Shown here: one piece after another, positions 10,616 through 57,252 of the stretch | Numbering within the stretch: the first letter of the stretch is position 1 | Layout: each line of letters begins with the position of its first letter | DNA from: Streptomyces mirabilis | GTDB lineage: Bacteria > Actinomycetota > Actinomycetes > Streptomycetales > Streptomycetaceae | Direction of reading: 5' to 3' | NCBI RefSeq assembly: GCF_018310535.1 | Contig: NZ_CP074103.1 | Location: 453,983 to 517,982 of the forward strand | Length of the DNA stretch: 64,000 bases | Translations under genes and position numbers: made by a program | The notes under the pieces: generated by a model | The model's input: only the letters and a program-made list of their open reading frames with translations | Told to the model about the DNA's origin: nothing | Database searches by the model: none

Positions 10616-10620
10616 CTGAC

Positions 10621-41916: not shown

Positions 41917-42270
41917 ATGGGGATCGTGATGCACGGGGAAGGAACCACGCCGCCGCTCGACCGCACCGACTGCCTCATGGCCTTGGAGGCTGCCCTCCGG
42001 TGGTGGGGAGCCGATGTGCCGGAGGACCCAGGAGCGGGTGAGCTGGCACAGCTGCTGGACGAGATCGTAGAACGCCTGAGCGGGGGGCGGAGTACCGAGC
42101 AGGCGCGATCGGCCGCCGAGCTCCTGGCCCAGGCGGCTGAGGCACTGAGGGCGGCGGCCCGGCTCGGCGGCCTCCTTCCGGCGATCTCGTTGTGGCACCT
42201 CAGGACCGCGCTCCGACAAGAAGCCGTCGCCCGCGGCCAACTCGCCGAGCTGGCCGCGTCCCCCCTGTAA
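41917..42270 (+). CDS. small helical hypothetical protein, 117 aa
   Basis: A mainly helical, Ala/Leu-rich protein (residues 25-115). The first ATG at 41917 follows GGAGAACG; an ATG four codons later is also possible. It lies 55 bases downstream of the tandem GntR gene in the same direction and ends exactly where a 7-bp tandem repeat begins. Function unknown. Confidence 0.55.
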   Translation: MGIVMHGEGTTPPLDRTDCLMALEAALRWWGADVPEDPGAGELAQLLDEIVERLSGGRSTEQARSAAELLAQAAEALRAAARLGGLLPAISLWHLRTALRQEAVARGQLAELAASPL

Positions 42271-42312
42271 CCCGCACCCCGCACCCCGCACCCCGCACCC
42301 CGCACCCCGCAC
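42271..42312 (+). repeat. six tandem 7-bp repeats
   Basis: Six perfect copies of CCCGCAC immediately after a stop codon at 42268-42270. The unit is not a multiple of three and the array lies between genes. It may act as a slippage-prone spacer or a protein-binding array. Confidence 0.85.
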
Positions 42313-42366
42313 CGGCGAACGGCGTGGCGCCCCCATCGAGCCGGGCCCGACGACTACAGTCGCGCC

Positions 42367-42530
42367 GTGCGGCATCGGTCTGCTGCTCCTCACGCGAACC
42401 TCGGCCCGCTGGTTCAAGGCGTAGGCGAAGAAGCACGGCTTCGATCAGCTGCACCCCACCGACCGCAACACCGCACACCAGTGCCTGTTCCTCACGCTCC
42501 GCGGGCCGACGGAGCTGAGCGAAAGGTGCC
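42367..42530 (+). pseudogene. possible gene remnant with in-frame stop
   Basis: A leaderless-type -10 (TACAGT, 42355-42360) ends six bases before GTG 42367. Yet the coding-like frame here is a different one: it reads GIGLLLLTRTSARWFKA, meets TAG at 42423, and continues KKHGFDQLHPTDRNTAHQC with strongly G/C third positions. This pattern fits a short gene broken by a frameshift and a nonsense change. The GTG frame itself runs into the next gene but has poor codon use. Confidence 0.3.
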
Positions 42531-42537
42531 TGAAGCC

Positions 42538-43545
42538 ATGTCGGCCACCCAGACCAGCAGTCGAGCCCGGACCTACGCCCTTTACACCGGCGCCCCCCGC
42601 CAAGCCGCCTGTGACGCCGTTACCGCCCTGCAGCCCGGCGCGCCCCTCATCCCGGCACCGGCCCAGCAGGCACAACTGCTCCTCGAATCCGAGGTGTTCT
42701 ACTGGGTCCTCAACTCCCAGAGGCACTTCTTCGAGTACCCCTTCGGCATCCGCTACGTGCAGCCCACCCCGCACAGCATCAAGCTCCACCTGGAAAGCGA
42801 CGAAAGCCTCGACAGCCTGATGGGCGGGCTGCTGCCCTCCCGTGCACCGATGCGCACCGGACGAGACGAAATCTACGGACTCAACGGCGTCCGGATCTGC
42901 GCACGCACCGATCGCGGCATCGAGCTCCGCCGACTCGGGCAGCCGACCAGCATCCAGCTCACCGGCCCCTCACGCCGCGCCTTCCAGAAGGCCGAGGCAG
43001 CCCTCGCCCGGCAGATCCAGAGCAACGGCGGAGAAGCCTGCTGGCTGGCCGGCGACACCTGGACCCCCTACGAGAAGCAGTGGGACGACGAACGACAGCC
43101 GATCGCCTACGAGTCCACATGGCGCGACGCGGCTTGGCTGCCCAGCGGACTGCTGCGCCGCCTCGGACTCCTTCACACGGTCGCCGTCCCCCAGGTCGTC
43201 ACCGGGCACGAGGCGAGGCTGGGGGAGTGGTGGATCCTGCACCTCGAACACGACTCCGACACCGGCCTGCGCCGCGCCGAGCTGGTCCAGGCCCTGACCG
43301 ACCCGCACCACGGTCTGCCGCTGGAGCTGTGCGGCCACCGCGACCTGACGCCCGGAGAAAGCCTCGGGCTGGTCCTCTTGAAGTCCCCGGATCGCACCGC
43401 CGCCCTCCAACTGCGTTACGGCCGGATCGACTACCCGATCAAGGAGAATCGCGCGCAGATGTTCGCGGCGATCCGGCAGCGCACCAGCGCTCTGACGGGC
43501 GAAGCCTCATTGCCGCCCATGCCCGGTTGCTCGGGCACCGGTTGA
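42538..43545 (+). CDS. hypothetical protein, 335 aa
   Basis: An unrecognised soluble protein. Features are an N-terminal segment ending LESEVFYWVLNSQRHFFEYPFG, a central region with GGEACWLAGDTWTPYEKQW, and a C-terminal half with SLGLVLLKSPDRTAALQLRYG. The ATG at 42538 follows GAAAGG twelve bases upstream, with a GTG four codons earlier as alternative. Upstream in-frame sequence back to 42367 has non-coding-like third positions. The role is unknown. Confidence 0.65.
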   Translation: MSATQTSSRARTYALYTGAPRQAACDAVTALQPGAPLIPAPAQQAQLLLESEVFYWVLNSQRHFFEYPFGIRYVQPTPHSIKLHLESDESLDSLMGGLLPSRAPMRTGRDEIYGLNGVRICARTDRGIELRRLGQPTSIQLTGPSRRAFQKAEAALARQIQSNGGEACWLAGDTWTPYEKQWDDERQPIAYESTWRDAAWLPSGLLRRLGLLHTVAVPQVVTGHEARLGEWWILHLEHDSDTGLRRAELVQALTDPHHGLPLELCGHRDLTPGESLGLVLLKSPDRTAALQLRYGRIDYPIKENRAQMFAAIRQRTSALTGEASLPPMPGCSGTG

Positions 43546-43702
43546 GCCGAGCCCCGCGCCGGCGATTCGTCAAGGCCGCCGTCACTCAAAGGGATTGCCG
43601 CAACCGGGCGAGGTCCCACGACCCGCGTGCTTGCCGTACGGTTTCCGGACTGCGCCTGCCGGGGGGAACGGCAGGCCGGACCGGGGAGGGGACGGCGTCC
43701 AG

Positions 43703-44029
43703 ATGGTCGGGGATGAACAGGAGACCTGGGGCGAACACGCGATCTGCCGAACCGCAGATCCGGACGAACTCTTCGTCGACGGCGCGGCCCAGAACCGGGC
43801 CAAGGCTCTGTGCACCGGCTGCCCGGTGCGCACCGAGTGCCTCGCCCATGCCCTCGACAAACGCATCGAGCACGGCGTCTGGGGAGGCATGACCGAGCGT
43901 GAACGGCGCTCCCTCCTGCGACGCCGGCCGCTGGTCACCTCCTGGCGCCGCCTGCTCGAAGCGGCCCGATCAGAACATGAGCGCATCGTCCGGTCCGACG
44001 ACCAGCAGCCCTGGAACGCCACGGGGTGA
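43703..44029 (+). CDS. WhiB-family iron-sulphur regulator
   Basis: A 108-residue Wbl protein. The four cluster cysteines are in HAICRTADPDELF, LCTGCPVRTECLAH, and the family turn GVWGGMTERERR (about residues 60-71) precedes a basic C-terminus. Wbl proteins carry a 4Fe-4S cluster and modulate transcription through the main sigma factor in development and stress. The ATG at 43703 is about 16 bases after GGGGAGGGG, a long spacing, so a GTG at 43697 is also possible. The genes on either side are unrelated. Confidence 0.88.
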   Translation: MVGDEQETWGEHAICRTADPDELFVDGAAQNRAKALCTGCPVRTECLAHALDKRIEHGVWGGMTERERRSLLRRRPLVTSWRRLLEAARSEHERIVRSDDQQPWNATG

Positions 44030-44135
44030 TCACCCCCGCTCGCACAAGGCCTTCGGAGCCCGCGTCACCGGAATGCGGTCGCCGGACGGAAAGCGCGAGA
44101 ACGGCGCTGTCGGTGGCGCCTGACAGGATTCACCG

Positions 44136-45062
44136 ATGGAGATCAGCAACGCGCCACGCCACCCCGTGAACCAGCAGCGCCTCGACCAGGCCCTCGGCGA
44201 CAAGACGGACCGTGTCCAGGAGCGTTTCGAGGACGTCTATCAGCGTGGCTTTCCGATGCGCGTGATGCTCGAGGAACTCGGCCACGAGCTGCTCGACCAC
44301 GTCGCAGCGCGCACCATCCAGGACCCCGACCTCGACGACGAGCGCACTCGCCTCGCCCTGGTCACCGCTGCTGAATGCCGCCTGGGCGTGCTGGACCGGG
44401 GCTGCTTTCCCCACGGCGACTGGGCGATCCCCTTGCCTTTGACCGGGACGCGTCTGACCAGCGAGGAGCTGGACTATGACGAGATGCACGACGCGACCGA
44501 CACGGTCACCGCCCGCACATGGGTCGACGCCTTCGATATCTGCGTCTCCAGCGGTCTGGTGCGGGACTGGGAACGGGTGATCGGTCTGCTCCTGCGCAAC
44601 GACTTCGCGCCCGCACTGCGCAACAGCCTGCCCCACGCCGGCCGGGACTCCGTCTCCGATTCGGCCGACCTCGCGCAAATGGACGCCCTGTGCGGCTACC
44701 TGACCCCGGCCCGCGGTCACCTGCCCCGAGACTGGCCACAGGTGACGCTGACCAAGCCATCGACGGACGAGCGACTGGACGCGGCCCTCGCCTTGGACGC
44801 GGCCCACGCCGTGAGTCCCGACCAGCGCCTGCTGCGCGTCCTGCTCCGCGACGATCAGAGCGCCTTCGAGCGGGCCTTGGACGAACGACTGGCGCAGCAC
44901 CGTGTCGGCGTCGGTGAGAATCCCGCGCCCGGGAGTCTGCTTCCCTTTGGCGCGATCGCCTTGGCCGCACTCGCCGTGCAGGCGCATGGCTGGGACCTGC
45001 GGACCAGGTCCGCCTACCTTCCGACCTCGCTGCTGAAGCCGCCTACCCCTGTCGGCTCCTGA
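44136..45062 (+). CDS. Imm49-like immunity protein
   Basis: A 308-residue, largely helical protein with the layout of the Imm49 family common in Streptomyces: RTWVDAFDICVSSGLVRDW (about residues 128-146), FERALDERLAQHR (about 246-258) and the C-terminal LPFGAIALAALAVQAHGWDL ... YLPTSLLK. Imm49 proteins are predicted to neutralise polymorphic toxins. No toxin or secretion gene lies beside it, so it is an orphan here. The ATG has no strong ribosome site. Confidence 0.6.
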   Translation: MEISNAPRHPVNQQRLDQALGDKTDRVQERFEDVYQRGFPMRVMLEELGHELLDHVAARTIQDPDLDDERTRLALVTAAECRLGVLDRGCFPHGDWAIPLPLTGTRLTSEELDYDEMHDATDTVTARTWVDAFDICVSSGLVRDWERVIGLLLRNDFAPALRNSLPHAGRDSVSDSADLAQMDALCGYLTPARGHLPRDWPQVTLTKPSTDERLDAALALDAAHAVSPDQRLLRVLLRDDQSAFERALDERLAQHRVGVGENPAPGSLLPFGAIALAALAVQAHGWDLRTRSAYLPTSLLKPPTPVGS

Positions 45063-45095
45063 CCCGGCAGAACGGTCGTCGCCGGACCTCGGGGG

Positions 45096-45260
45096 TTACA
45101 GCAGGTCCACGTCCGCGTCGACGTACCCGTACTGGCGGGCCATGTGTACCAGCGCCTCCCGCAGCCGGCTCAGGCGTCGCCGCCACGCGTGACCATGGAC
45201 GGCGCCGGTCTTCGGTCGCCTGCGGTGGTGGTTCGCGCGCCGAGGACCGGTGAGCTGCAC
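45096..45260 (-). CDS. possible small protein opposite the next gene
   Basis: A minus-strand frame from GTG 45260 reads to a stop at 45096 (54 residues, ending RQYGYVDADVDLL) with strongly G/C third positions. It overlaps the plus-strand gene at 45195. There is no clear ribosome site. It may be the last part of a longer gene or a spurious frame. Confidence 0.25.
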   Translation of the reverse strand: MQLTGPRRANHHRRRPKTGAVHGHAWRRRLSRLREALVHMARQYGYVDADVDLL

Positions 45261-45530
45261 GGCCTCGCGCCGGGCGAGGAGCCGCCCACTGGTCTGGCCG
45301 CCGGCATGCGGCTCTTGTGCAGCGGCCACGGAATCGAGGTCCCGGTCGTGCGGCCATACGCCGGGGAGTTCGACGAGCGCAGAGCGTGCCGAACGTGCCT
45401 GGCTGTCGCCCGGGGCGAACCGCCCGCCCGGTACTTCGCTGTCCACTGTGCCGCGTGCGGCGCCGCCCGGGCTTTCACCCACGGACCTGACGGCGCTCCC
45501 GTGGTGGTCTGGGCACGCCGGAGGCGATGA
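45195..45530 (+). CDS. Cys-rich hypothetical protein, 111 aa
   Basis: A small protein with two Cys pairs that look like a zinc site (RACRTCLAVARG and AVHCAACGAARAF), preceded by LLCSGHGIEVPVVRPYAGEF. Not recognised as a named family. The ATG at 45195 is a reasonable start but lacks a strong ribosome site, and an opposing open frame overlaps its first 65 bases. It is convergent with the three-gene ATPase locus, ending five bases from that locus's last stop. Confidence 0.5.
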   Translation: MDGAGLRSPAVVVRAPRTGELHGLAPGEEPPTGLAAGMRLLCSGHGIEVPVVRPYAGEFDERRACRTCLAVARGEPPARYFAVHCAACGAARAFTHGPDGAPVVVWARRRR

Positions 45531-45534
45531 CCGG

Positions 45535-47565
45535 CTACACGTCGCTGGGGTCTCGTTTGTTGCCCTGAACTCGGACCATGATCAGGGTGCGCGGACGAGG
45601 GTCGCCGGCGGGGCCCGGCAGGGTGCGGACCTGGATACACGCCGGGATGGCCGCGAGACCATGCGGCTTCGGGGTGAGATCCAGGACCACGAGGAAGTTC
45701 ACGGGTGGGCCGGCGACCTGGTACGAAATCGCCTGGGGCCCGTAGGTCTTGGCGTACGCGTCCCAGGAAGAGTCGGTCCAGTCCCGCTTGAGCTCCAGGG
45801 TGATGAGTTCGGTGTGCGGCTGCCAGGCGATGTCGACGCGGCCGCCCCCGATGTTGGTTTCCTCCATGCGCACCCGCAGGCCCTGGCCGCGCAGGAAGTC
45901 GCGGAGGTCGCGGCCGAGTTCGGCTTCGCGGGGTTTGTCCTCGTCCTTCTTGAGTTGGCGGAGGTAGGCCCGCGCTTGTCCCCCGTACTTCTGTGTCTCG
46001 GACAGCCGCAGGTCGACGAACCGGAGCAGGTGCAGGACCATGCGGTCCACGTCAGCGGCGAACTGCCCGACGTATCCGTCCGGGCATTGCTCCTGCAGTT
46101 GGCGGTGGGTGTCGCGGAACGCCGTAGCGATGATGGGCACTTCGTCGACCGGCAGGGCGGCTTGCCGGGAGGCGAGCATCGCTGCGATCCGCTCACTCAG
46201 TTCCGGTACGTCTGCCAGAAGGTTCTGTAGGCGCTCGGTATCTGCTGAGGAGAGCCCGAGCCCGGCGAGTTGTGCCGCCGGGCGGTCAGGTTTTGGGGAC
46301 GAGGCACCACCCCCGGTGTCCAGCGCCTGCCGGAGCCGGGCGGCCTGTTCCCGAACGAGCGTGGTGGTCGGGTCCTGGTCGCGGCCAGGGTCCTCGACGA
46401 GTTCTTCCAGCCACTCGTCCAGAAGGGCCAGTCCGCCTTCGTGCGCGAGGAGGGTGGCCTCGACTCGGGGAGCGAGGAGGGAATGAAGGCCGTGCGTGGC
46501 CGCTGGTACAACAGGCCCCGGCTGGAGATTGGCCGGGGTCGAGGAGGGGGCGAACAGGTCGAGCGTCCGGTGAGCGGTGTAGACGTCCACGAGATCGCTG
46601 ATCACGGCGGCGGCGTGGAGCCAGGCTCCGGGGCGGTCCGCGTGCTGTGCGCGGGTGAGGGTATCGAGGAGGTGTTGCCAGGCGGTGAGGGTGTCCAGCC
46701 GCGGAGTGCGCCACCCAGGTGGCAGGCCCAGGAGGTTGAGGCGTAGTTCCAGGACGGCTTCGTCGAGCTGGCTTCTGGCGTCGTCGGGGAGAGGAGCGCC
46801 GGCGGAGAAGGCGAGGATCGCGTCGATGGCGGCGCCGAAGGCGGCCGCGTCGGGTCGTTCTTCGTCCTGGTGGGCGTCGCTGAGGTGTCGACGGGCTTCA
46901 AGAAGGAGTGGGCGGGCGCGGTCAGCGTCGTTGGTGTGCAGGGCTTGGCGCAGGGCGAGCATGCCGAGTTCGAAGGCGGCGTCCTCGGAGACATCGTCGC
47001 GTTCGACCAGCTGACTCAGGAGGAGGCCGGGGGCGGGCGAGTCGAAATGCTCGGCGACGGCTCCTGCGACTCTGACGGTGCGCAGGGCGTAGTCGTCGTC
47101 GATCCGTGCAAGTTCCTGGTTCAGGCGGCGCAGACGGTCCAGGAGGCCATATTCGGCGGCGGCGCCGGCCAAGACGACGCGGGCAGTGCCTTCCAGGGCG
47201 ATGCCGCCCAGGAGGTCGGTGTGGCTGCGGCTGGCATCGAGCCAGATGTCGGCCAAGTCATCGCCGAGTTCGTGGACAGCCTCGGGACATCCGAGGAGGG
47301 AGGTGATGACACCCTCCAGGCGGAGCGGGTCCTGAGGGACCTCGGCGGCAGTGAGGAGGAACGCACGGGCCTGGTCGTCCTGGATAGCTGTGTGGTCGGC
47401 GCACATCAGGGCGACGAGGGTGGGCAGTTCGTCGTGGTTGAGCAAGGTGGCGGTGTCCTGCAGGAGGTGGCCGAGCCCCCCGAGGTCGACGAGGGACGGC
47501 GTGGGTCCGCCGGCGCGCTGGGCGTCCACCAGCGGTTGCAGCGGATCGGGAGCGCCAGGGGACAC
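45535..47565 (-). CDS. putative PD-(D/E)XK nuclease subunit of the three-gene ATPase locus
   Basis: A 676-residue protein, helical over residues 1-540, with a C-terminal region that fits the PD-(D/E)XK fold: GGRVDIAWQ (catalytic Asp, about 578) followed by LITLELKRDW (Glu-x-Lys, about 588-592) and a later YGPQAISYQV helix. It would be the effector of the locus. The GTG at 47565 follows GAGGAG ten bases upstream. A TATGCT -10-like sequence at 47608-47603 suggests that it also has its own promoter in the 85-base gap after the ATPase gene. Nuclease activity is inferred from the motif only. Confidence 0.65.
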   Translation of the reverse strand: MSPGAPDPLQPLVDAQRAGGPTPSLVDLGGLGHLLQDTATLLNHDELPTLVALMCADHTAIQDDQARAFLLTAAEVPQDPLRLEGVITSLLGCPEAVHELGDDLADIWLDASRSHTDLLGGIALEGTARVVLAGAAAEYGLLDRLRRLNQELARIDDDYALRTVRVAGAVAEHFDSPAPGLLLSQLVERDDVSEDAAFELGMLALRQALHTNDADRARPLLLEARRHLSDAHQDEERPDAAAFGAAIDAILAFSAGAPLPDDARSQLDEAVLELRLNLLGLPPGWRTPRLDTLTAWQHLLDTLTRAQHADRPGAWLHAAAVISDLVDVYTAHRTLDLFAPSSTPANLQPGPVVPAATHGLHSLLAPRVEATLLAHEGGLALLDEWLEELVEDPGRDQDPTTTLVREQAARLRQALDTGGGASSPKPDRPAAQLAGLGLSSADTERLQNLLADVPELSERIAAMLASRQAALPVDEVPIIATAFRDTHRQLQEQCPDGYVGQFAADVDRMVLHLLRFVDLRLSETQKYGGQARAYLRQLKKDEDKPREAELGRDLRDFLRGQGLRVRMEETNIGGGRVDIAWQPHTELITLELKRDWTDSSWDAYAKTYGPQAISYQVAGPPVNFLVVLDLTPKPHGLAAIPACIQVRTLPGPAGDPRPRTLIMVRVQGNKRDPSDV

Positions 47566-47650
47566 CGGTCACCATCTCCTCACTGCGCTCGGCCGTCTGT
47601 GGAGCATAGGGGCCGGGCCTGTACCCGGAACACCCGCCGAAACGGGGTGG

Positions 47651-49720
47651 TCACCACAGGCGTTCCCCGGCCGGCGCGAGGCGTAGCTGGTCTTCCGGAA
47701 TGACCGAGGCCACCTCCTGGCCGCGGGCGGTTGCGACGACAACCTGGAGCCGTGGTGCCGTCTCGGTGAGCTGGACGAGCCCTTCCAGCATCAGCTCCAG
47801 GTCTCCGCGGTCGACTTCTTCGGCGCCGGGCGAGTCGATGATGAGCAGTCCCGGGTGCCTGCCGACGCCAGTACGGATGCCGTGCCGCAGGAGCGCGGTG
47901 GTGGTGACGATCTTCAACCGGAGCTGCTCGCCCTCGGTGAGCGATCCGTACGACTGATGCTGGCCGCCCTTCCACACCTTCAGGGTGGCGCTCGTGCCCA
48001 GTTCGACGTCTTCGAGCATCTCCAGCCCGAGCTGGCGGCCCATCGTGACGATGTCGGTCTGGACGGCTCGGATGACCTCCTTCAGGGCCTGGGTGCGGCG
48101 GGTGTGCGCAGCCTTCTCGGCAGCCTTGAGGATGTCTTGGTCCCGTTGGAGCGGCGCGAGTCCTGCCGGGTCGCCGAGGTCGTCGAAGCGTCCTCGACGT
48201 TCATCGAGGGCGCCCTTCAGCCGGGCGACCTCGAGCTCGGCTGCTCGGCGATCGCCCGTGGCCGGGCGGGCCAGCGCCTCCTGAAGGGCGTTCCGGGTCT
48301 GGCCGAGTGCGGCAGTGACTGCGGTCGCCCTGGCCTGCTTGTCGGCCAGCACGGTGGCCGCCGTCTCAACGGCCTGTTGGACCTGGGCGAGTGTCTGGCG
48401 CAGTTCCTGGTCGTCGTCGACGTCGTCGTCGTCGTCGTCGTCGTCGTCGACGTCGTCGAGGCCGTCTTCGTCGGCTGAGGTGCCGTCGTACTGCGTTGGG
48501 GACGGGTGCAGTTCGGAGGTACACAGGGAGCAGTGGCCTTCGTCTTCCCGGGCCCATTGGGTCTGGGTGACCTGGGCGTCGCAGCGGGGACACACCGTCG
48601 GTTTCAGGGTGTGGAAGAAGGCCTTGGCGAGGGCGGCTTCGTGCGCGGCGTGGACCAGAGCGGCCAGGTTCTGGCGCTGATGTTCGAGTTCGTCGTGCTG
48701 CGAGCGGGCTTCGGCGAGCTCGCGCTGCGCGGCGCCGGCCGCTTCGGTCGCCGCCGCGAGATCCTGGTACGCGCCGTTCAGGTCGGCGGCGCTCTGACCG
48801 AGGTCGGGAAGGGCGTCCAGCCGTTCCTGGGCTCGTTGGAGGCTGCGATCGAGTTCGTCGATTTTGCTCTTGCGCTCGTCTGCCTCGGCCTGCGCGCGGG
48901 CCCTGGCGGCGGACAGCTGCGCCGTGACGATCTTATGCGCGACCGAGGCGGACACCATCGTGGCGGCCCAGGGTGCTCCCAGAAAGAGCTCAAGGAGCCG
49001 GGTCGGCAGGGCGTTGCGGGCTTCGTTACCCAGGAGGTGGCCCAGGCCGGAGCGGTTGATGTGGAGGGCACTGGCGTACGCCGGCCAGGACAGTTCGCCG
49101 GTCAGGGGCGGTCCATCCACTCCTTCGGGGCGCTTCTGCTGGGTGCGCAGCGGCTCCAGACCGAGCCGGTCCAGCATGAAGGCGTCCATCAGCTCTTCGA
49201 AGGTGGCGGCGTTGTCGAAGGTCAGGAGCACCGCTCCGGTGTCCTTGGAGGCCACGGTCCCCGACGGCTTGCTGTTGCTGACGGTCATCTCGACGACGAG
49301 GGTCTCGTCGTCGAGGACGAACTCGGTGCGTACCCGGTGCAGCCAGCTCTGGACGTCGCGCTGGAGGGCACTGCGGCCGCGCAGGCACCACAGGATGATC
49401 TCCAGCACGCTGGACTTGCCGGCCTCGTTCTTGCCCGACGAAGCCAGGCACCACACTCCGGGCCCCATCTTCCAGTGGAAGTGAAAGGGCTCGCCCTCCT
49501 GGTCGTCGCCGCCATCGTGGTCACCGGCCGGAGCGGGGCGCACGCCCTCGAACTCCACCTCGGTGACGCTCAGCGAGTGCGGCCTGGGCAGGGCGGTCTG
49601 CGGACGCACGCCGTGCTCGGCGAGGACCGCCTTGACGTCGTCCAGCTCTCGGCCGGTCGCCTTCGCGATCTCCTCCAGCCACACCTCGACCGGGCCCGGG
49701 CCGCTGCTCGCTGTGGTCAT
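47651..49720 (-). CDS. Rad50/SMC-like ATPase with zinc hook
   Basis: A 689-residue ABC-type ATPase. Walker A SSGKNEAGKSS lies at about residues 94-104, the signature region GSLTEGEQLRLKI at about 590, and Walker B LLIIDSPGAEEV at about 625. Between them are two coiled-coil stretches (about 255-370 and 420-560) around a CPRC ... CSLC zinc hook (about 375-400) and an extremely acidic linker. The ATG at 49720 overlaps the stop of the upstream gene (ATGA). It is transcribed between a small predicted winged-helix gene and the PD-(D/E)XK-type gene, the arrangement of ABC three-component systems. Related to the DUF3732 group only by general architecture. Confidence 0.8.
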   Translation of the reverse strand: MTTASSGPGPVEVWLEEIAKATGRELDDVKAVLAEHGVRPQTALPRPHSLSVTEVEFEGVRPAPAGDHDGGDDQEGEPFHFHWKMGPGVWCLASSGKNEAGKSSVLEIILWCLRGRSALQRDVQSWLHRVRTEFVLDDETLVVEMTVSNSKPSGTVASKDTGAVLLTFDNAATFEELMDAFMLDRLGLEPLRTQQKRPEGVDGPPLTGELSWPAYASALHINRSGLGHLLGNEARNALPTRLLELFLGAPWAATMVSASVAHKIVTAQLSAARARAQAEADERKSKIDELDRSLQRAQERLDALPDLGQSAADLNGAYQDLAAATEAAGAAQRELAEARSQHDELEHQRQNLAALVHAAHEAALAKAFFHTLKPTVCPRCDAQVTQTQWAREDEGHCSLCTSELHPSPTQYDGTSADEDGLDDVDDDDDDDDDVDDDQELRQTLAQVQQAVETAATVLADKQARATAVTAALGQTRNALQEALARPATGDRRAAELEVARLKGALDERRGRFDDLGDPAGLAPLQRDQDILKAAEKAAHTRRTQALKEVIRAVQTDIVTMGRQLGLEMLEDVELGTSATLKVWKGGQHQSYGSLTEGEQLRLKIVTTTALLRHGIRTGVGRHPGLLIIDSPGAEEVDRGDLELMLEGLVQLTETAPRLQVVVATARGQEVASVIPEDQLRLAPAGERLW
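48411..48460. repeat. GTC/GAC trinucleotide repeat encoding an Asp run
   Basis: A near-pure trinucleotide repeat in the ATPase gene encodes a long aspartate tract just after the zinc hook. Repeat-length change would alter the acidic linker without a frameshift. Confidence 0.85.
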
Positions 49721-50385
49721 GCCAGTCCCTCCTGGGCCAGCGCCTCGTCCAGGCGCTCGCGGACCCGCTCGGAGATACCGCCGATCATCCGGCGCACGGG
49801 TGTGGTGGCGTACTCGGGCTGCCCGTATTGCTGTTCCTTCAGCTGGGCTCCGGTCATCCCCTCGACCGCGGCCGCCACGTAGCCGGTCTGCTGGTCGTAC
49901 CAGGCGAGGACCTCTTCGCTCTCGCGGAGCCGTTGGGCTTGGTCCGCGCCGGCCTGGAGGAGGAAGTAGTCCCTGCGGCGGACTCGTTCGTCGGACACTC
50001 GGCCTGCGCGCCGTACCGCGATGAGTCCCAGGTGGCGCAGCACGCTCAGGGCGTTGTCGAGAGCTTCGTAGGCTCCGTGGTCGTTGCGGAGCATCCGGTA
50101 GGTGTGCAGTTCCGGCTCGCGTTCTTCGAAGACGGCGCGGGCGTCGAGGAGCCGCTCCGCCGGCAGGCTGCCGTCCTGCCACCTGGTGATGATCAGGTTT
50201 GCGAGGTAGTCCGGGTTCCGTACGAGGAAGTCCAGCTTCTGCAGCTTGCGCTGGGACTGGATCGCCCGAACGGCTGTGTCGGGTACCTGCGGCCAGTCGG
50301 CGCAAGGTTCACCCAGCCGATCCAGGATGAACAGGACTCGTACCGCCGTCTGGCCTGTGGTCGGTGAAGGACTGACCGCGACCAC
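49717..50385 (-). CDS. putative middle component of an ABC three-component-like system
   Basis: A 222-residue protein beginning near VRVLFILDRLGEPC, then LQKLDFLVRNPDYLANLI (about residues 48-65) and a predicted winged-helix segment EALDNALSVLRHLGLIAV followed by RRDYFLLQ. This pattern is what I would expect for the small middle component that links ABC ATPase and effector in ABC three-component conflict systems. It is the first gene of the leftward locus and overlaps the ATPase start by four bases. The GTG at 50385 directly abuts an AAGGGG sequence, so the start could be a few codons off. The family call is tentative. Confidence 0.55.
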   Translation of the reverse strand: MVAVSPSPTTGQTAVRVLFILDRLGEPCADWPQVPDTAVRAIQSQRKLQKLDFLVRNPDYLANLIITRWQDGSLPAERLLDARAVFEEREPELHTYRMLRNDHGAYEALDNALSVLRHLGLIAVRRAGRVSDERVRRRDYFLLQAGADQAQRLRESEEVLAWYDQQTGYVAAAVEGMTGAQLKEQQYGQPEYATTPVRRMIGGISERVRERLDEALAQEGLA

Positions 50386-50639
50386 CCCCTTGGACCTGCC
50401 CGAACGTCCAGGACCCTCACTGATTGCTGATCATCGGTCACTCACCATACAAGCGAACATCACCGAATTACCCCCGTGTGGCGCGATCGGCCCGGAAATC
50501 TCGATCGGCCGGAGGAGTGAACCCCGCGGTGTCGCCTGTGGTGTCGTATGCGCTTCATGGCGTAGGGCACTGGTTGACGGGACACCGACGTGCCGGTGCC
50601 AAGCTCGTACGTAGACAGACCGAGGGACGGAGCCCGATC

Positions 50640-51362
50640 GTGGTGAACGCCAGCAGTGCGCCTTTGTCCTACGTGCCGTGGTCCCCCGAGGAACCCGGCT
50701 GGACGACCGACCAGGCAGGCATCCGCGGCGCCGAATGGCTCATGGAACAACCGGGCCAGAAGCTGGTCTTGGTCCCCCAGCTGCAGAACTACCAGCAACA
50801 CCCGATGGCCCAGCACGTACGGAACGCCGTCGTCGCCAAGCGCGGCGCCCTGTCGGGGTGGGACCGCGGCCCGGTACTGGCACCATGGCCAACCCGGGAG
50901 ATCGTGGGCGATCTCGCCAGTGACCTCCGGGGCCGGGCGACAGCCATCTGCGTCATTCCATGGGGCACCGATCCCCTCCTGACCGCGTGGCTGCGCGCAC
51001 GCCGTGCGGTGAGCGTGGTCGACGGCTCCGTACACCCCGAGGCGGACGAACCGCTGCTGGAGCCGGTGGTCGAGGCGGCGATGACCGAGCTGGGGCAGCA
51101 CGTGAACCACGCCAACGCCCTCGCCAGCCACATCGACAAGGCGTTCGCCTTGCACACGCTGCTGAAACTGCACGAGGCGGGCTACCGGTGGGACGTCGAC
51201 AAGCTGTGCGGCTGGGCGCTGGGTCATGGCTTCACCGGCGCAGAGGAAGACCGTCTACGGCAGTACGCCACCAAGGTGCTTGAGGGATCCACGTTCCGAC
51301 CGCTTCCGACCGACCCCTTCTCCCCCGGTGCCGTTCAGCGATGGCAGGACCAGGCGTCTTAG
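50640..51362 (+). CDS. hypothetical protein, 240 aa
   Basis: An unrecognised alpha/beta protein divergent from the three-gene ATPase locus. Segments such as GQKLVLVPQLQNYQQHP, RATAICVIPWGTDPLLTAWL and RRAVSVVDGSVHPEAD alternate like a Rossmann-type fold, and the C-terminal 90 residues are helical. GTG codons at 50640 and 50643 are both possible starts after GAGGGACGGAG. The 254-base region upstream presumably holds promoters for both directions and no further gene. Its position suggests it could be an accessory gene of the ATPase locus, but nothing in the sequence proves this. Confidence 0.65.
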   Translation: MVNASSAPLSYVPWSPEEPGWTTDQAGIRGAEWLMEQPGQKLVLVPQLQNYQQHPMAQHVRNAVVAKRGALSGWDRGPVLAPWPTREIVGDLASDLRGRATAICVIPWGTDPLLTAWLRARRAVSVVDGSVHPEADEPLLEPVVEAAMTELGQHVNHANALASHIDKAFALHTLLKLHEAGYRWDVDKLCGWALGHGFTGAEEDRLRQYATKVLEGSTFRPLPTDPFSPGAVQRWQDQAS

Positions 51363-51401
51363 CTGCACGCGGTGAGGTCTGGCGCGGTACCGTGTCGCGC
51401 C

Positions 51402-51836
51402 ATGACGCTGAGGACCAGCAGGGACCTTATGGCCTGGCAGCCGCCCACCGGCTGGCGCGAGCTGAGCAGCGAACAGCGCCACGCCTACCTCGAGCGCCAC
51501 GGCATACGGATCCCGCTGAGGCCGGCCGACTGGGAGCAGATGGATCACGACCGGCGCATGGGCTACCTCTCCTGGCACTCCCGGATCCTGAGCGACACCC
51601 CCGATGCGCGGGCGGCCAAGGAGCGCGAGTTCCGCAAGGACCTGCGAGCCTGGAACGTGCTGATGGGCTGGTGGATCCTGTGCCTCCTCGTCGGGCTGGG
51701 CATCGTCTGGGGAGCCGGCGCGGCCGGTGAAGGCATCGGGCTGCGCATCGGCATCACGCTCTTCGCGGGCGTGGGGTACACCATGGCGATCTTCATACCG
51801 ATGCTGATCAGCAGGCCCTCCCCGCCCCGCACCTGA
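51402..51836 (+). CDS. small membrane protein, 144 aa
   Basis: The first 80 residues are soluble, charged and helical (ELSSEQRHAYLERHG); two membrane helices follow (WWILCLLVGLGIVWGAG and IGITLFAGVGYTMAIFIPML). TACCGT at 51388-51393 ends eight bases before ATG 51402, typical of a leaderless start. It lies 71 bases before a tRNA-Trp gene. Function unknown. Confidence 0.65.
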   Translation: MTLRTSRDLMAWQPPTGWRELSSEQRHAYLERHGIRIPLRPADWEQMDHDRRMGYLSWHSRILSDTPDARAAKEREFRKDLRAWNVLMGWWILCLLVGLGIVWGAGAAGEGIGLRIGITLFAGVGYTMAIFIPMLISRPSPPRT

Positions 51837-51907
51837 TCCTTCGTCGGTGCTCGGCCCGAAATTCGGTGGCTGAGGGAACTACGGCCGTGCCAGGCTCCAG
51901 CCACCGA

Positions 51908-51982
51908 AGGGGCGTAGCTCAGCTCGGCCAGAGCAGCGGATTCCAAACCCGTGCGCCGCAGGTTCGAATCCTGCCGCCCCTG
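51908..51982 (+). tRNA. tRNA-Trp (CCA)
   Basis: A 75-base cloverleaf with a perfect 7-bp acceptor stem (AGGGGCG), D-stem GCTC/GAGC, anticodon loop TTCCAAA (CCA) and T-arm GCAGG/CCTGC with loop TTCGAAT. The anticodon stem is weakened: one A-C mismatch next to the loop and a G-T pair at its base. No CCA is encoded. The overall fold is clear; the imperfect stem leaves open whether it is a fully functional tRNA. Confidence 0.85.
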
Positions 51983-52028
51983 CGCGAACGGCAGCGCGTC
52001 CAGGTCCTCATGGGACCTGGCCGCTCGC

Positions 52029-52360
52029 TCATGAGCCGACGAACTGGGGCGTCACGCCAGTGCGCTGCAGGAACTGCCGAGCACCGCGCAGTGTGGTGCG
52101 CAGATTGCGCTGGGCCGCCCGCTGTCGAGGCGTACGTCGAGGGCGCCGGGAAGGGTGCTGCCGGCCCGCAGGCCCGTGGGCAACCGGGCGTCGTCGAGGC
52201 CGTCCCGCTTGGCGATAAGGATGCCGAGGTCGTGACGGCTCAGCGCGTCGGGCCCGCCGAGATGGTGCATGCCGGCCGCGTCGCACGAGGCCAACTCCAG
52301 CAGGGCGGCGGCCAGATCGGCGACGTGCACCGGGCAGCGGACGTCGTCGGTGAATCGATG
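52029..52360 (-). pseudogene. broken C-terminal piece of an RmlD-like reductase
   Basis: On the minus strand this reads RFTDDVRCPVHVADLAAALL, then HLGGPDALSRHDLGILIAKR and LRAGSTLPGALDVRLDSGR, which is the C-terminal substrate-binding half of a dTDP-4-dehydrorhamnose-reductase-like (sugar NAD-dependent) protein. The catalytic N-terminal half is missing, and the last segment (LRTTLRGARQFL) is in a different frame, showing a frameshift near 52110. It starts about 45 bases from the tRNA-Trp 3' end. Confidence 0.65.
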
Positions 52361-52426
52361 AGCAGACCGACCTGACCATCCACGGCGTGATCCTCGCCGC
52401 CCACGCCGACGCTGCGGCCCTGCGCA

Positions 52427-52558
52427 ATGCCGAACCTGGAGCAACTGGCCGCCAGCGATCCTCGGTCCGTGCCTCAGCGGGTCCTGACCGCCATCTTCGC
52501 CACTGCCCTCGCCGCCGATGAGATCGACGCCTGGTACGAGGCCTACTTCGAGGACTGA
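52427..52558 (+). CDS. small ORF or gene fragment, 43 aa
   Basis: A short frame MPNLEQLAASDPRSVPQRVL ending EIDAWYEAYFED with strongly G/C third positions. No good ribosome site precedes the ATG. It lies beside the broken reductase gene, so it may be the C-terminus of another truncated gene rather than a complete small protein. Confidence 0.35.
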   Translation: MPNLEQLAASDPRSVPQRVLTAIFATALAADEIDAWYEAYFED

Positions 52559-52608
52559 CTGAGTCGGCGGCGGTTACGGTCATCGGTCGTGTCCCTCGCC
52601 TCTTACAC

Positions 52609-53628
52609 CTACACGCCGTCACCGCCCGCCTCGTCGGCAACTTGGAGAGTTCCGTGGGCGCCGAACACGGTGTGGAACACCACCTGCCCGCTGTTGGACG
52701 CAGCGTCACTGAACCAGCGGCTGGAGCGCAGTGCCTGGGCGACGCATTCGGCCAGTGCGTCACCGACGGGCGCGACGGACGTATCGGGCGCCACCAGCTC
52801 GGGCAGGTCATCCAGGTCCATGCCGTACTGCTCAAGGTGTTGGATGAGCAGGTGGGCCAGGGCGCGAGAGGGGTCGCTGGTTTGGCGCTGCCCGTCGTCG
52901 GGGTCCATCAGCCCGGGGAAGACCACGGCGCGGGTGAAGAAGTCGCACAGGGCCCCGAACGCCTCCGGGTCCGGGTGGTGGCTGCGGTCGTCGCGTGCCG
53001 TGAGGGCCCACTGCAGGATGACGTCCACGTGCGCGCGCCGGGCCCGCTCCGCCGCGTCTGGCGTGCCGGCGTCACCGGACCCGAGGGCGGCGGCCCCGGC
53101 GGTGCCGTCGGCCTCCACGGGAAGCGGCGCCGTGACGGGCAGAACGTCACCCAGCTCGGCCTGCCACCGTTCGAATGTCGCGGCTTCCTCCTCGGCGCGC
53201 TGGTAGGCCGCGTCGTACTTGGCGTCGCCGAGGACTGCGGCAGACTCCGCCCACCTCGCGAGGATCGCAGCGTGCTCCCACCGGTCCTCGGACGCAGGAA
53301 GCTGGTCGCGGCGCCCGTCCATGAGGGCCGGCAGCAGCGCGGTGATCGCCGCCGGCGCCGCCAGTACTGGGATCGGTAACGCGACGAGCTTGTCACCGTC
53401 TCGCTCCTGGTACGCCCAGCCCGCGGACGAGTTCCACACCAGCTCCAGCCCGTCCGGCCACTCCTCGGCGGTCAGCTCCGCAGCCCCGCCGGTCCACGCC
53501 CACCGGGCCTCCGCCGTACCCCGCACCTCTCCCCGGCGGACCGCGAATTCTGCATCCGCGTAGCCGGCGCGCGCGAGAGCGCCCTCGATGATGCGCGGGT
53601 ACCTCTTCCAGCCCCTGAACTGGTCCAC
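52609..53628 (-). CDS. hypothetical protein, 339 aa
   Basis: An unrecognised soluble protein starting VDQFRGWKRYPRIIEGALAR. It is acidic and helical; a Trp-rich N-terminal part (ARWAWTGGAAELTAEEWPDG) is followed by a long helical region with two possible helix-rich domains. The frame continues far upstream, but GTG 53628 has AGAGG seven bases before it. It is divergent from the acetyltransferase gene, with 246 bases between them that contain no gene I can support. Confidence 0.65.
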   Translation of the reverse strand: MDQFRGWKRYPRIIEGALARAGYADAEFAVRRGEVRGTAEARWAWTGGAAELTAEEWPDGLELVWNSSAGWAYQERDGDKLVALPIPVLAAPAAITALLPALMDGRRDQLPASEDRWEHAAILARWAESAAVLGDAKYDAAYQRAEEEAATFERWQAELGDVLPVTAPLPVEADGTAGAAALGSGDAGTPDAAERARRAHVDVILQWALTARDDRSHHPDPEAFGALCDFFTRAVVFPGLMDPDDGQRQTSDPSRALAHLLIQHLEQYGMDLDDLPELVAPDTSVAPVGDALAECVAQALRSSRWFSDAASNSGQVVFHTVFGAHGTLQVADEAGGDGV

Positions 53629-53874
53629 GGTGCGACCTCTCCTGCTGCTCCGAAACGGCACTGCCTCTGTCCCGGGCAGACTGCCAGCCGCCACCGACAA
53701 CGCCGCCGCCGGTAACCGAACGGGAACCGAAAGCACGAGCATTCGTACGGCTCCTTGTGCTGGGCCGACTCCACCGCAGGGGCCAGCCCCGGAGCCGCTC
53801 ACTCCCGTCACCCGCCCGTGCGTCTCCGTACGAAGCCGGCCCGCTCCGAGCCGCCGGCTGCCAAGGTGACATTC

Positions 53875-54678
53875 ATGGAATCCGTCGACACCGCCCTGGA
53901 CCGCCTCTGGCCCGCCGAGCTGCGCACCGACCATCTCTTCCTGCGGCCGGTCACCCACGAAGACGGACTCCTCGTGCACAAGCTGCTGACCGACGACCGG
54001 GTCCGCGCGCACCTCGGCGGTCCGGTCACGCAGGAGCGCGTCGCCGCCCGGCAGGCCGCCTACCCGACGACGGCCGGCGCGTGGACCGTCGTCCGCGTCG
54101 CCGACCAGCAACCGATCGGCCTGGTGACCATCGGCGCCGACCACAGGCGCGAGGGCCGCGCCGAAATCTCCTACCAGCTGCTCCCCTCCGCCTGGGGCGA
54201 AGGGCTGGGCAGGGAGGCCGTCGCCGCGGCCGTCAGCTGGTGGACGGACGCCGTCCCGGGCGGTGGCCCGCTGGTTGCGGTCACCCAGAAGGCCAACCTG
54301 GCCTCGTGCCGCATGCTGGAGTCGATCGGCATGATCGTCGTGGACGAGATCGACGAGCACGGTGCGCGCCAGTGCCTCTACACCCCCGCGGGCGACCAGG
54401 ACGACAGCGATCTGCGCTGGGTCCGTCTGCTCGCCGAGCACCGGGACGCCGTCGAACGCCGACGAGGTGCCCAGGCACGCGCGACCGCGGCCGGCCAGGA
54501 CCTCCCCGACGACCTCGCGGTGCTCACCCCCGAGGAGTTGGCCCGGCTGTGCCCCGCCCGTCACGGCGCCTACGGCCGAGTCTGCGCCCGCAGGGCCGAT
54601 CACACGCCAGACCTTCACCTGGGCAGGGCGCAGGACGGCGCGTGGATCGCCTGGCTGACAACGGCTGGAGCTTCCTGA
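53875..54678 (+). CDS. GNAT acetyltransferase with C-terminal extension
   Basis: The first 180 residues are a RimJ/RimL-type GNAT domain that uses acetyl-CoA: LRTDHLFLRPVTHEDGL, GLVTIGADHRREGRAEISYQ and the acetyl-CoA loop SAWGEGLGREAV (about residues 105-116), then NLASCRMLESIGM. An unassigned 85-residue C-terminal extension (about 183-267) contains two cysteines and a His pair (CPARHGAYGRVC and DHTPDLHLG). Likely acceptor is a protein N-terminus or small amine, not determinable. The start ATG 53875 follows AAGGTGACATTC. Confidence 0.8.
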   Translation: MESVDTALDRLWPAELRTDHLFLRPVTHEDGLLVHKLLTDDRVRAHLGGPVTQERVAARQAAYPTTAGAWTVVRVADQQPIGLVTIGADHRREGRAEISYQLLPSAWGEGLGREAVAAAVSWWTDAVPGGGPLVAVTQKANLASCRMLESIGMIVVDEIDEHGARQCLYTPAGDQDDSDLRWVRLLAEHRDAVERRRGAQARATAAGQDLPDDLAVLTPEELARLCPARHGAYGRVCARRADHTPDLHLGRAQDGAWIAWLTTAGAS

Positions 54679-54715
54679 CCGCTCGCCCCGGCGCGGCCAA
54701 GGAGCGCGTCGGCGC

Positions 54716-56068
54716 TCAGAACTCGCTGGCGCGCATGGGGACGAGTTCGGCGACCTCGAACTGGGTGGTCTCCGGGTGCAGTTCGAGGAAGCGGGCGATG
54801 ACCTGGGGGTGAGCCTGGCCGACGAACAGGTCCAGCGCCACAGGGTCGAGGGGACCGTCGTCCAGCTGCAGGTACGTCATGGCCAGATGGGCGCCGTGAT
54901 GCAGAGCGTCTTTCTCGGTGGGGTAGGTCCAGGTGCTCAGCCCGCGTCGCGGCTCGCTGCGGTGCAGCAGAACCCACGGTCCGCCGGCCGCCCCCTCAGG
55001 CGCGTTGGCCAGGGCCCGGCAGGTGCGGCACCACGACGCGTTCGCGGCGAGCCGCTCCGCTGAACCGGCCCCCCACACCGGTTCTGGCACGACGATGCGC
55101 GCGGCTGTCGGCCGTACGGGCAGGGTCTGCGGCTCCCGGGTGAGCAGTTCGGGGACCTGGTAGGCGGTGCGGGCGCGGCCTTTCCGGCCTGCCGGGAGCT
55201 GCCACAGAGCCCGCGGCCACGGCTCATCGAAGGTTACCGAGGGGCTGCTGCTGAACGGTCGGCCGAGGCCGGCCAAGTCCCTGTGGGACGGTTTCGGCTC
55301 CTCCCCGGGAGGCAGCGGCAGCAGCCAGCCGGCCGCGTCCTTCACCCAGCCCTGCCGGCAGCCGCCACACCAGTGCACGGCGGCAGCCTGCTCGGCGGGG
55401 CTGTCGTACCAGTCCGGCTCCTCCCGGCCCAGCCCTAGCCGCGTCATGGCGGTCGGCTTCTCGCACGGGCAGGACGCGAACCGGTACAGCTGCACATCGG
55501 GCTGCTCGTCGCGCGAAGCGTGCAGCCACGCCCGGTGGACACCCAGCGCCTCTGCCAGCGCCTCCCGCTCACGTTCTCCGGGCCGGGACCGGCCCGCCGC
55601 CCAGTGCCCGATCTGGTGCGCGCCGACGCCGACGTCGCCGCCCAGGCCGACGGCTGTCTTCGCGGCCGCCTCTTGCAGCAGCCGCAGGCGTCGCGCGAAG
55701 GGAGCCAGCTCCAGCAGCGCCCACACCGGATGGTCACCACGGGGTTCGACGTACTCCAGATCGTCTTCCCACACCTCATGGAGCTCGTTGTAGGACGTGG
55801 CGTGCTCGGCCAACGTCTCGATCACCCACCCGCGCACCGCAGCGTCGTGTGCCCACTGCTCACCGGTAGCCTCACGCGCCGCCGCGTCCGCGTTCTCCTC
55901 CAGCACCAGCTCCTCGTGCATCGGGAACACCAACTCCTCGACGGCCAGCAGTGCCCGGGAGGCGACGACACGACGAGCAGGCTCCGGCACCGCGCCGTTC
56001 AGCACACCCGACAGCACGTCGACGGCCCGCACCACCAGCCGGTCCTGCTGCTTCCCCCACCTGCTCAC
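54716..56068 (-). CDS. hypothetical protein with XRE-like helix-turn-helix, 450 aa
   Basis: A 450-residue protein with a possible helix-turn-helix (VGAHQIGHWAAGRSRPG, then REALAEALGVHRAWLHASRD, about residues 155-200) and two cysteine clusters (FASCPCEKP, HWCGGCRQGW and later CRTCRAL) that may bind metal. It would be a DNA-binding or regulatory protein. An upstream ATG at 56116 is open, but GTG 56068 is preceded by GGGAGGGGGG and starts the compact reading frame. Its end is 38 bases from the convergent GNAT stop. Confidence 0.6.
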   Translation of the reverse strand: MSRWGKQQDRLVVRAVDVLSGVLNGAVPEPARRVVASRALLAVEELVFPMHEELVLEENADAAAREATGEQWAHDAAVRGWVIETLAEHATSYNELHEVWEDDLEYVEPRGDHPVWALLELAPFARRLRLLQEAAAKTAVGLGGDVGVGAHQIGHWAAGRSRPGEREREALAEALGVHRAWLHASRDEQPDVQLYRFASCPCEKPTAMTRLGLGREEPDWYDSPAEQAAAVHWCGGCRQGWVKDAAGWLLPLPPGEEPKPSHRDLAGLGRPFSSSPSVTFDEPWPRALWQLPAGRKGRARTAYQVPELLTREPQTLPVRPTAARIVVPEPVWGAGSAERLAANASWCRTCRALANAPEGAAGGPWVLLHRSEPRRGLSTWTYPTEKDALHHGAHLAMTYLQLDDGPLDPVALDLFVGQAHPQVIARFLELHPETTQFEVAELVPMRASEF

Positions 56069-56372
56069 CCTGGCCCCCCTCCCGCGGCCGCCGCGGCCCC
56101 GCACGTGCCACATCATCCCGACTACGACACGGACTCGGGCGACAACGACCGAAGTTCACCCACACCAGAGCAGACCCGCCTCACCTCTCGGCCGGCCACC
56201 AGCGCCCAGCGTCAGGCCCAGCACAGCCGCTGGCTACGCGGCCACATACGCGGTGCCCGCCGACCGCCTCGGCGCCGTCGCCGAACAGGCCGAACTCGCC
56301 CCCGCGCCCGCCCGACCCTGCGCCGTAGCAGCCGGACAACCAGCACGCATGCCGCACCCCAACACACTCGAC

Positions 56373-56378
56373 TACGCT
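56373..56378 (+). promoter_or_regulatory. -10 box of the HNH gene in the 56069-56412 gap
   Basis: TACGCT lies 34 bases before the GTG at 56413. The rest of this 344-base divergent interval contains no gene I can support; it should hold promoters for both flanking genes. Confidence 0.35.
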
Positions 56379-56412
56379 GCGCGTTGTCGTCAGGGCGAAG
56401 GAAGGGCGGGCT

Positions 56413-57252
56413 GTGGCCAAGCGGACGAGCGGCCCCGAGAAGAACCGCAAGGAGCCGATGTCCGGCGTCGCGCGCCGGCTGTGGGCGTTCTCCGGCAACG
56501 AGTGCGCCTGGGGCGACCCGCACTGCCCAACGCGGCTGGTCACGGATGAGGGCGCCTGGGTCGGCAAGATCGCCCACATCATCGGCGCTGAGCCCGGCAG
56601 CGCCCGGCACGAGGCATGGGACGGCCGGGACGTCGAACAGCTGAGGGACTTCGACAACCTGATGCTGCTGTGCGGGGTGCACCACGACCTGATCGACAGC
56701 AGCGTCACCCGGGACAACTACACCGTCGAGTACCTGCGCGCGGTCAAACAGAAGCATGAGGGCACGTACCGGTACACGGTCGACGACATCGAGGCCGAGT
56801 TCCGGGACACGGTCAACGGCTTCCTGGTGCGGCCCGCCACCACCATGCGCCGCTTCTTCGCCTGGGAGGACGCCGACCAGGATCCGTCGGACGAACAGGA
56901 CGTCCTCGAACTGGTCAACCGCTTCGCGGGGCGTGTCGGCGGCCTCACGCGGATGGCCCGACAGGTCCTCGCCCTCGTGGTCCACGAGGAGACCACGGAC
57001 TTCGAACTGGTGTTGCGGCGCTTCTCGGCGGACCGTACGACGCTGCTCAGCGTCGTACGCGAGCTCCAGAAGGCGGAGATGGTCTACCTCCACGACGAGG
57101 AATACGACGAGGACCGCGGACAACTGTCCCTGCTCGGTGGCGCTCTGGAGGGTGTCTCCGAGATGTGGGACGAGCTTCGGGGCTTCTGCCTCGACGAGAA
57201 GGTCGACCTGAAGGAGATCCTGGTGGATCTCGACTTCTCCCGCCTGGACTGA
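56413..57252 (+). CDS. HNH-type endonuclease, 279 aa
   Basis: The N-terminal 100 residues form an HNH nuclease: FSGNECAWGDPHC (zinc-type cysteines), GKIAHIIGAEPG (first His, about residue 55), NLMLLCGVHHDLID (Asn and final His, about 82-95). The C-terminal 170 residues are helical and may hold a winged helix (FSADRTTLLSVVRELQKAEM). HNH plus a regulatory-like tail occurs in several defence and homing nucleases. It starts with GTG after GGAAGGGCGGG, downstream of a TACGCT -10-like sequence. It stands alone. Confidence 0.8.
   Translation: MAKRTSGPEKNRKEPMSGVARRLWAFSGNECAWGDPHCPTRLVTDEGAWVGKIAHIIGAEPGSARHEAWDGRDVEQLRDFDNLMLLCGVHHDLIDSSVTRDNYTVEYLRAVKQKHEGTYRYTVDDIEAEFRDTVNGFLVRPATTMRRFFAWEDADQDPSDEQDVLELVNRFAGRVGGLTRMARQVLALVVHEETTDFELVLRRFSADRTTLLSVVRELQKAEMVYLHDEEYDEDRGQLSLLGGALEGVSEMWDELRGFCLDEKVDLKEILVDLDFSRLD

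Follow-up and report, generated by a model that had tools for sequence, protein, structure and literature searches.

Three adjacent genes with matches to Lamassu profiles

The window analysed here is a stretch of 64,000 nucleotides from Streptomyces mirabilis (contig NZ_CP074103.1, positions 453,983 to 517,982), and it carries at 45535-50385, on the minus strand, three consecutive open reading frames (ORFs) that we assign to the Lamassu family of defence systems. Their limits are identical, to the base, to those given in a preliminary description of the same DNA. The operon is transcribed in the order lmuC-lmuB-lmuA. The first gene, lmuC (49717-50385, minus strand, GTG start), encodes the small component, a predicted winged-helix protein of 222 residues that matches LmuC in PADLOC. 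It is followed by lmuB (47651-49720, minus strand, ATG start), whose product of 689 residues is an ABC ATPase of the Rad50/SMC-like type and has a short coiled coil, and by lmuA (45535-47565, minus strand, GTG start), which encodes the effector, a protein of 676 residues with a helical N-terminus (residues ~1-540) and a likely C-terminal nuclease domain. The start of lmuB overlaps lmuC by ATGA, just as the preliminary description had it, and 85 bases separate lmuB from lmuA. The G+C content of the three ORFs is 0.82-0.86 at third and 0.44-0.47 at second codon positions; since this is typical of genuine genes in a G+C-rich genome, we consider all three to be real genes.

None of the three proteins scored above cut-off with any Pfam or NCBIfam model. 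PADLOC profiles, on the other hand, matched all of them: PDLC03872 matched LmuC at nearly full length (E 2.2e-67), PDLC03864 matched LmuB over residues 12-689 (E 1.9e-193), as did several other LmuB profiles, and PDLC03853 matched LmuA over residues 9-676 (E 7.8e-149). The three-gene locus with a Rad50-like ATPase that was proposed from the letters of the DNA is therefore confirmed by three adjacent near-full-length matches and by the conserved synteny described below, which together place the locus beyond chance; the statement that no subtype could be named for the effector and the small component is superseded, the type being Lamassu. Since profiles for all three proteins are already present in PADLOC, the operon adds a new member to a known kind. 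We put the probability that it is a complete Lamassu-family (LmuABC, ABC-3C-type; ABC-3C, ABC three-component) defence operon at roughly 85%.

Relatives, synteny and horizontal transfer

A search of 392 genomes of the genus retrieved LmuA matches at E<=0.001 in 34 genomes and at E<=1e-100 in 20, the S. mirabilis genome included. The LmuC profile was found in 42 of the 392, with 21 matches at E<=1e-50 and the rest weak. The sample of the phylum yielded LmuA matches in five of 396 genomes, S. mirabilis being again among them and one match being weak.

We scanned 36 loci, 33 of them around LmuA matches and three from a search for related loci; six places in the genus (one duplicate and five weak ones) and one weak place in the phylum sample were left out. 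lmuC is present at 25 of the 36 loci, and the gene order is C-B-A in all 25. Three of these loci (L011, L074 and L080) have an LmuA that is incomplete or split, and L049 has such an LmuB. The 11 loci that have no lmuC comprise eight with pieces of LmuA only, one without a match (L079), one cut by the end of its contig (L069, with lmuA and lmuB) and L061, to which we return below. All 19 plasmid loci that were opened also have the C-B-A order. LmuB matches were found in 35 plasmid records, and in 34 of these, 24 from Streptomyces, both lmuB and lmuC are present. Chromosomal copies occupy 8 positions in 6 genomes, and circular plasmids from Sphingomonas and Arthrobacter carry the same three genes as well. 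Thus, apart from broken or contig-edge loci and the single exception of L061, the three genes are conserved together across genomes, as the preliminary description would lead one to expect. The matrices of pairwise identities at 21 loci correlate at 0.98 (A-B), 0.95 (A-C) and 0.94 (B-C); since relatedness by itself raises such correlations, they reveal shared history and not contact.

LmuA proteins of Actinomadura pelletieri and Nocardia farcinica are 80-86% identical to that of the window, whereas most copies from the same genus are 22-30% identical to it, which points to horizontal transfer. With window positions 42000-56000 used as the query, the DNA of the Actinomadura copy (L009) was similar over 45533-50510 only; the similarity to a Streptomyces zinciresistens contig (L010), which ends just behind lmuA, covered 45543-50546; that to the Nocardia contig (L011) covered 46220-50434, and that to plasmid pFRL3 (L123) covered 45415-50546 with a further piece at 45178-45425. 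Judging from these limits, the moving unit consists of the three genes and ~50-160 bases upstream of them. This upstream region (50386-50546, minus strand), in which similarity ends at 50434, 50510 or 50546 depending on the copy, contains at 50449-50461 the block GATGTTC(G/A)CTTGT common to five aligned copies. The region is a possible promoter; no sigma-70 consensus site was found in the region upstream of lmuC.

Some of the related loci have features of their own. L072, L073, L075 and L076 hold frames of 149-171 residues that correspond to the nuclease end of LmuA only, with no lmuB or lmuC found adjacent, and these frames may either be left over from decayed loci or be nucleases that stand alone. 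At L058, a second SMC/Rad50-like frame (6808-8889, 694 residues, with CxxC motifs) is located directly behind a complete lmuCBA. Genome G538 carries Lamassu of the C-B-A lineage 35 and 37 kb from two chromosome ends (L064 and L068, with equal scores), probably within terminal inverted repeats, and a third copy at 2.5 Mb.

The ATPase LmuB

LmuB contains a Walker A motif (GKNEAGKS, residues 96-103), an ABC signature region (LTEGEQLRL, residues 594-602) and a Walker B-like motif (LLIIDSP, residues 625-631). K102 of Walker A, D629 and four cysteines (C377, C380, C397 and C400) are invariant in all 23 aligned LmuB rows. At position 630, directly behind the Walker B aspartate, 22 rows have serine and one has alanine, and the catalytic glutamate is absent. 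Such a residue suggests that ATP would be hydrolysed slowly and that activation would work as a one-way switch. In Lamassu generally, the glutamate is replaced by glutamine (PMC10586767).

The cysteines make up the motif CPRC...CSLC (residues 377-400; 48521-48592, minus strand), a probable zinc site. A zinc-hook ATPase had been proposed earlier; the cysteines do lie in the coiled coil, but they form two CxxC pairs and not the single CxxC of a zinc hook. A zinc hook motif is present in the coiled coil of many, but not all, Lamassu (PMC10586767). Behind the cysteine motif, LmuB residues 418-437 (48410-48469, minus strand) form the aspartate-rich run EDGLDDVDDDDDDDDDVDDD.

All 23 LmuB relatives, that of the window included, match PDLC03864, PDLC03863 and PDLC03859 in a PADLOC scan of the alignment. 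A profile of the LmuB family matched structures of archaeal Rad50 heads at E 1e-4, with two designed proteins in the same list (5e-4 and 4e-3). No Rad50 profile reached its cut-off with LmuB of the window, and JetC profiles matched it weakly only.

The effector LmuA and the small protein LmuC

The putative PD-(D/E)XK-type nuclease domain of LmuA comprises residues 536-676 (45538-45960, minus strand) and contains E547, D578, E591, K593, Q611 and Y615. E547, G575, R576, D578, E591, K593 and Q611 are present in 24 of 24 complete LmuA rows, and Y615 in 23, with histidine in the remaining one; three truncated rows were excluded from this count, in which L010 and L065 are probably one contig. In an AlphaFold2 model that was built from 5 sequences and is of low confidence, residues 10-538 are predicted to be helical and resemble TPR/ARM repeats in general appearance only. 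In the part that follows (confidence ~50) the model has a helix at 545-560, strands at 564-568, 578-582 and 588-593, a helix at 601-611 and a strand at 624-629. This helix-strand-strand-strand-helix-strand arrangement is the order of the PD-(D/E)XK core, and in the model E547, D578, E591, K593 and Q611 fall on the elements where they would be expected, with Y615 directly after the second helix, all at the same low confidence.

When C-terminal domains of 17 LmuA members were compared with Pfam on their own, PDDEXK_9 was retrieved with two (best E 7e-4), Mrr_cat with two (0.024) and AlwI with two (0.04), in one list with unrelated families. The domain of the window's LmuA matched none of the three, and no solved structure matched the LmuA nuclease domain at E<0.01, the best value being 0.25. 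We conclude that the C-terminus of LmuA is likely, but not proven, to be a PD-(D/E)XK-type nuclease. The motif at the end of the 676-residue protein, the residue pattern and the predicted order of elements fit the PD-(D/E)XK-type end named in the preliminary description, but confidence in the modelled fold is low. The model of LmuC is winged-helix-like, in line with the small winged-helix protein claimed there, and its profile match is LmuC and no unrelated family.

Assessment of the assignment

Several points weigh against the view that the locus is a complete Lamassu defence operon. At E<=0.001, each of the 22 LmuA relatives matches a single PADLOC profile, PDLC03853, so that at the sequence level the effector is without detectable likeness to other PADLOC LmuA families. 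Since LmuB matches several LmuB profiles and LmuA one only, we consider the ATPase plainly Lamassu-like and the effector a family of its own within the system. The LmuA model has a predicted local distance difference test (pLDDT) score of 61.5 and a predicted template modelling (pTM) score of 0.52, both low, with ~50 in the nuclease part. L061 has a full-size LmuA with neither lmuB nor lmuC in the preceding 4.1 kb, and with a stop inside that LmuA. In the published review, the effector domain of Lamassu is described as likely N-terminal and the small component as being in the middle (PMC10586767). Here, the nuclease residues are at positions 547-615 of 676 and lmuC is the first gene, not a mid-operon one; gene order and effector polarity therefore differ from that description, which is a descriptive tendency and not a strict definition. 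Furthermore, the oligomer and the mode of sensing known from other Lamassu are not transferable with certainty to this operon, whose defence activity is a prediction made by analogy.

Should the Lamassu assignment hold, it gives a function to genes whose relatives in the opened annotated Streptomyces plasmids are nearly all labelled "hypothetical protein".

Replicon, cargo slot and proximity to ends

The genome (9.62 Mb) consists of two contigs, C1 (9,103,359 bases) and C2 (517,982 bases); the window lies at the right-hand end of C2. Named plasmids nearest to the window are those of Streptomyces. The right flank (52703-63999) matches NZ_CP108869.1, a linear record of 29,698 bases from Streptomyces sp. 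NBC_00829, at 95-98%, and the last bases of the window fall 1.56 kb from the end of that record. Among the best 15 of 33 matched plasmid records, the flank is located <=5 kb from the record end in 11 and farther in in four, H180 and H191 having it deep inside. Comparison of the outermost 20 kb at each contig end revealed no terminal inverted repeat. Since the right flank matches ends of linear plasmids, C2 is most likely a linear plasmid, with its last 1-2 kb missing, and the operon is likely to be located ~15 kb from the plasmid end.

We aligned the window with six linear plasmids, picked among records matching both flanks. Depending on the plasmid, conservation on the left stops between 43545 and 44033, in the WhiB region, and resumes on the right between 52703 and 54691, in the GNAT region. 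The operon is thus held by a variable cargo slot whose narrowest limits are 44034-52702, and between the same flanks the six plasmids hold 2.4-11.0 kb of differing DNA. Judging by annotated genes and sizes, no lmuCBA is annotated or would fit in the slots of L141, L143, L144 and L146. The Streptomyces longwoodensis plasmid (L145) has lmuCBA elsewhere on the same arm, and that of Streptomyces xanthophaeus (L142) has a divergent lmuCBA in the very same slot, with an LmuB 28% identical to that of the window.

Streptomyces plasmid LmuB genes are found <=25 kb from an end in 16 of 22 de-duplicated records, with a median distance of 14.9 kb (Kolmogorov-Smirnov p 1.2e-7). The 22 were obtained from 24 by dropping two near-duplicate S. 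longwoodensis records, and 17 of them were opened and are linear. NBC_01717 has three places, and its end copy was used; with its internal copy, p becomes 1.7e-6. Of the 8 chromosomal positions of the operon, 5 are far from ends. That Lamassu in Streptomyces tend to lie toward the ends of chromosomes and of linear plasmids has already been published (PMC10482375); our analysis adds to this one particular slot, which in the window and in one of the six plasmids is occupied by Lamassu that share a layout but have diverged from each other. That proximity to ends is special to lmuCBA was considered and rejected, since Gabija ATPase genes are likewise near ends (7 listed of 19 Streptomyces records, p 3e-4, topology being confirmed for only some).

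The location in a variable slot on what is most likely an arm of a linear plasmid, together with the 34 plasmid records that have both lmuB and lmuC (24 from Streptomyces), raises the question of who benefits from the operon. With the same biochemistry, it may be the exclusion weapon of the linear plasmid against competing plasmids or phages rather than a means of host immunity, and restriction of plasmids has been attributed to the Vibrio system (PMC10586767, PMC12409362). Chromosomal copies speak against this explanation, and benefits to host and plasmid are not mutually exclusive; we regard it as possible but on balance doubtful.

The nearness to ends, as well as a gene annotated as "helicase associated domain protein" that adjoins lmuCBA in five of the 17 linear Streptomyces plasmids that were opened (one of them, NZ_CP108366.1, being without annotation), would fit a complex that maintains the ends of linear replicons, in which the Rad50-like ATPase and the nuclease process telomeres and have no part in defence. 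Since the same genes are found on circular plasmids, since most of the chromosomal positions are far from ends, since 358 of the 392 genomes of the genus have no LmuA match and since Gabija ATPase genes, in the 7 listed Streptomyces records, are near ends too, we consider such a role very improbable. A housekeeping SbcCD/Rad50-like DNA repair operon, suggested by the match of the LmuB family profile to archaeal Rad50 structures, can be given next to no credence in view of the patchy distribution, the horizontal transfer and the fact that all members match LmuB profiles, with LmuB of the window below every Rad50 cut-off.

Proposed mechanism

The gene set, motifs, co-inheritance, mobility and location of the Lamassu operon are direct observations, and the mechanism outlined here is drawn from published Lamassu systems (PMC10586767, PMC12409362, PMC12904381). 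By analogy with these, an LmuB dimer and LmuC would hold LmuA inactive. When a phage or plasmid invades, LmuB would bind its aberrant DNA, such as ends or hairpins, in an ATP-dependent manner, upon which LmuA would be liberated and would oligomerise; in other Lamassu, LmuA has been reported to be activated in this way, through its release and oligomerisation (PMC12409362). The LmuA nuclease would then cut DNA, that of the host included, leading to abortive infection. Given the inverted polarity of the effector, we infer that LmuA may dock by its N-terminal helical part.

Linear replicons offer a sharp test of the end-sensing model of Lamassu, since their own ends must be spared. One can imagine a distinct Lamassu lineage (C-B-A, nuclease-last) that inhabits subtelomeric cargo slots and for which the capping of telomeres, which are protein-capped and palindromic, serves as a self signal against bare incoming ends, a conjecture that we consider unlikely.

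Other features of the window

The slot that holds the operon also contains a gene for an Imm49-family immunity protein (44136-45062, plus strand) and tRNA-Trp (51908-51983, plus strand); tRNA-Met is found at 10542-10616 (plus strand), likewise on the probable linear plasmid. Approximately 8 kb from the Lamassu operon there is a Gabija pair (33395-37241, plus strand), in which a UvrD-type helicase comes after GajA (PADLOC E 2e-189); its nearness speaks for a defence role of lmuCBA. Six Streptomyces plasmid records contain close copies of the pair (87-91%), at 16-49 kb from their ends. Positions 24097-29315 (plus strand) encode a SNF2 helicase of 1335 residues, in which DUF3670 and a dsRNA-binding motif are present, and an overlapping partner of 404 residues. 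The PADLOC matches of this helicase to ZorD/DpdE cover the helicase part only, and the two proteins are possibly another defence pair. A gene annotated as SNF2-related is also present near lmuCBA on pFRL5 and on an S. longwoodensis plasmid. An HA-domain DEAD helicase, which we take to be of the telomere-proximal (TtrA-like) kind, is encoded at 6149-8548 (plus strand).

Comparison with known systems

Wadjet (JetABCD) resembles the operon described here in combining an SMC-like ATPase with a nuclease and in its anti-plasmid role (PMC10586767), but both partner proteins of the ATPase match Lamassu and not Jet profiles. With Rad50/SbcC, LmuB shares the Walker A region, the coiled coil and the profile match to Rad50 heads; it differs in being short (689 residues) and in having four cysteines in place of one CxxC hook and Asp-Ser in Walker B, and there is no Mre11-like partner among the three genes. 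ABC-3C conflict systems, reportedly described by Krishnan et al. in 2020, likewise have three components with an ABC ATPase, but the small protein of our operon matched no Pfam family of their middle components. The resemblance to them that was noted from the letters of the DNA is nevertheless upheld, for ABC-3C and Lamassu are placed in one superfamily (PMC10586767).

The closest counterpart is the three-gene form of Lamassu (type II/LmuABC), which includes DdmABC of Vibrio cholerae and whose DdmA consists of a Cap4 domain and a C-terminal domain (PMC12409362). As in this form, an SMC/Rad50-like LmuB, a small LmuC and a nuclease effector, here a likely one, are encoded in one operon, the catalytic glutamate of Walker B is lost, and the genes are carried by both plasmids and chromosomes. 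We found no description of a nuclease-last, C-B-A Lamassu lineage in the open-licence literature that was searched, though one may exist elsewhere. What sets the present operon apart is the gene order lmuC-lmuB-lmuA, the position of the putative nuclease at the C-terminus of LmuA behind ~540 mostly helical residues, Asp-Ser in place of Asp-Gln in Walker B, and an effector whose sequence is not detectably similar to other PADLOC LmuA. A natural Lamassu with such inverted effector polarity would provide a useful contrast for understanding how LmuA is docked and released.

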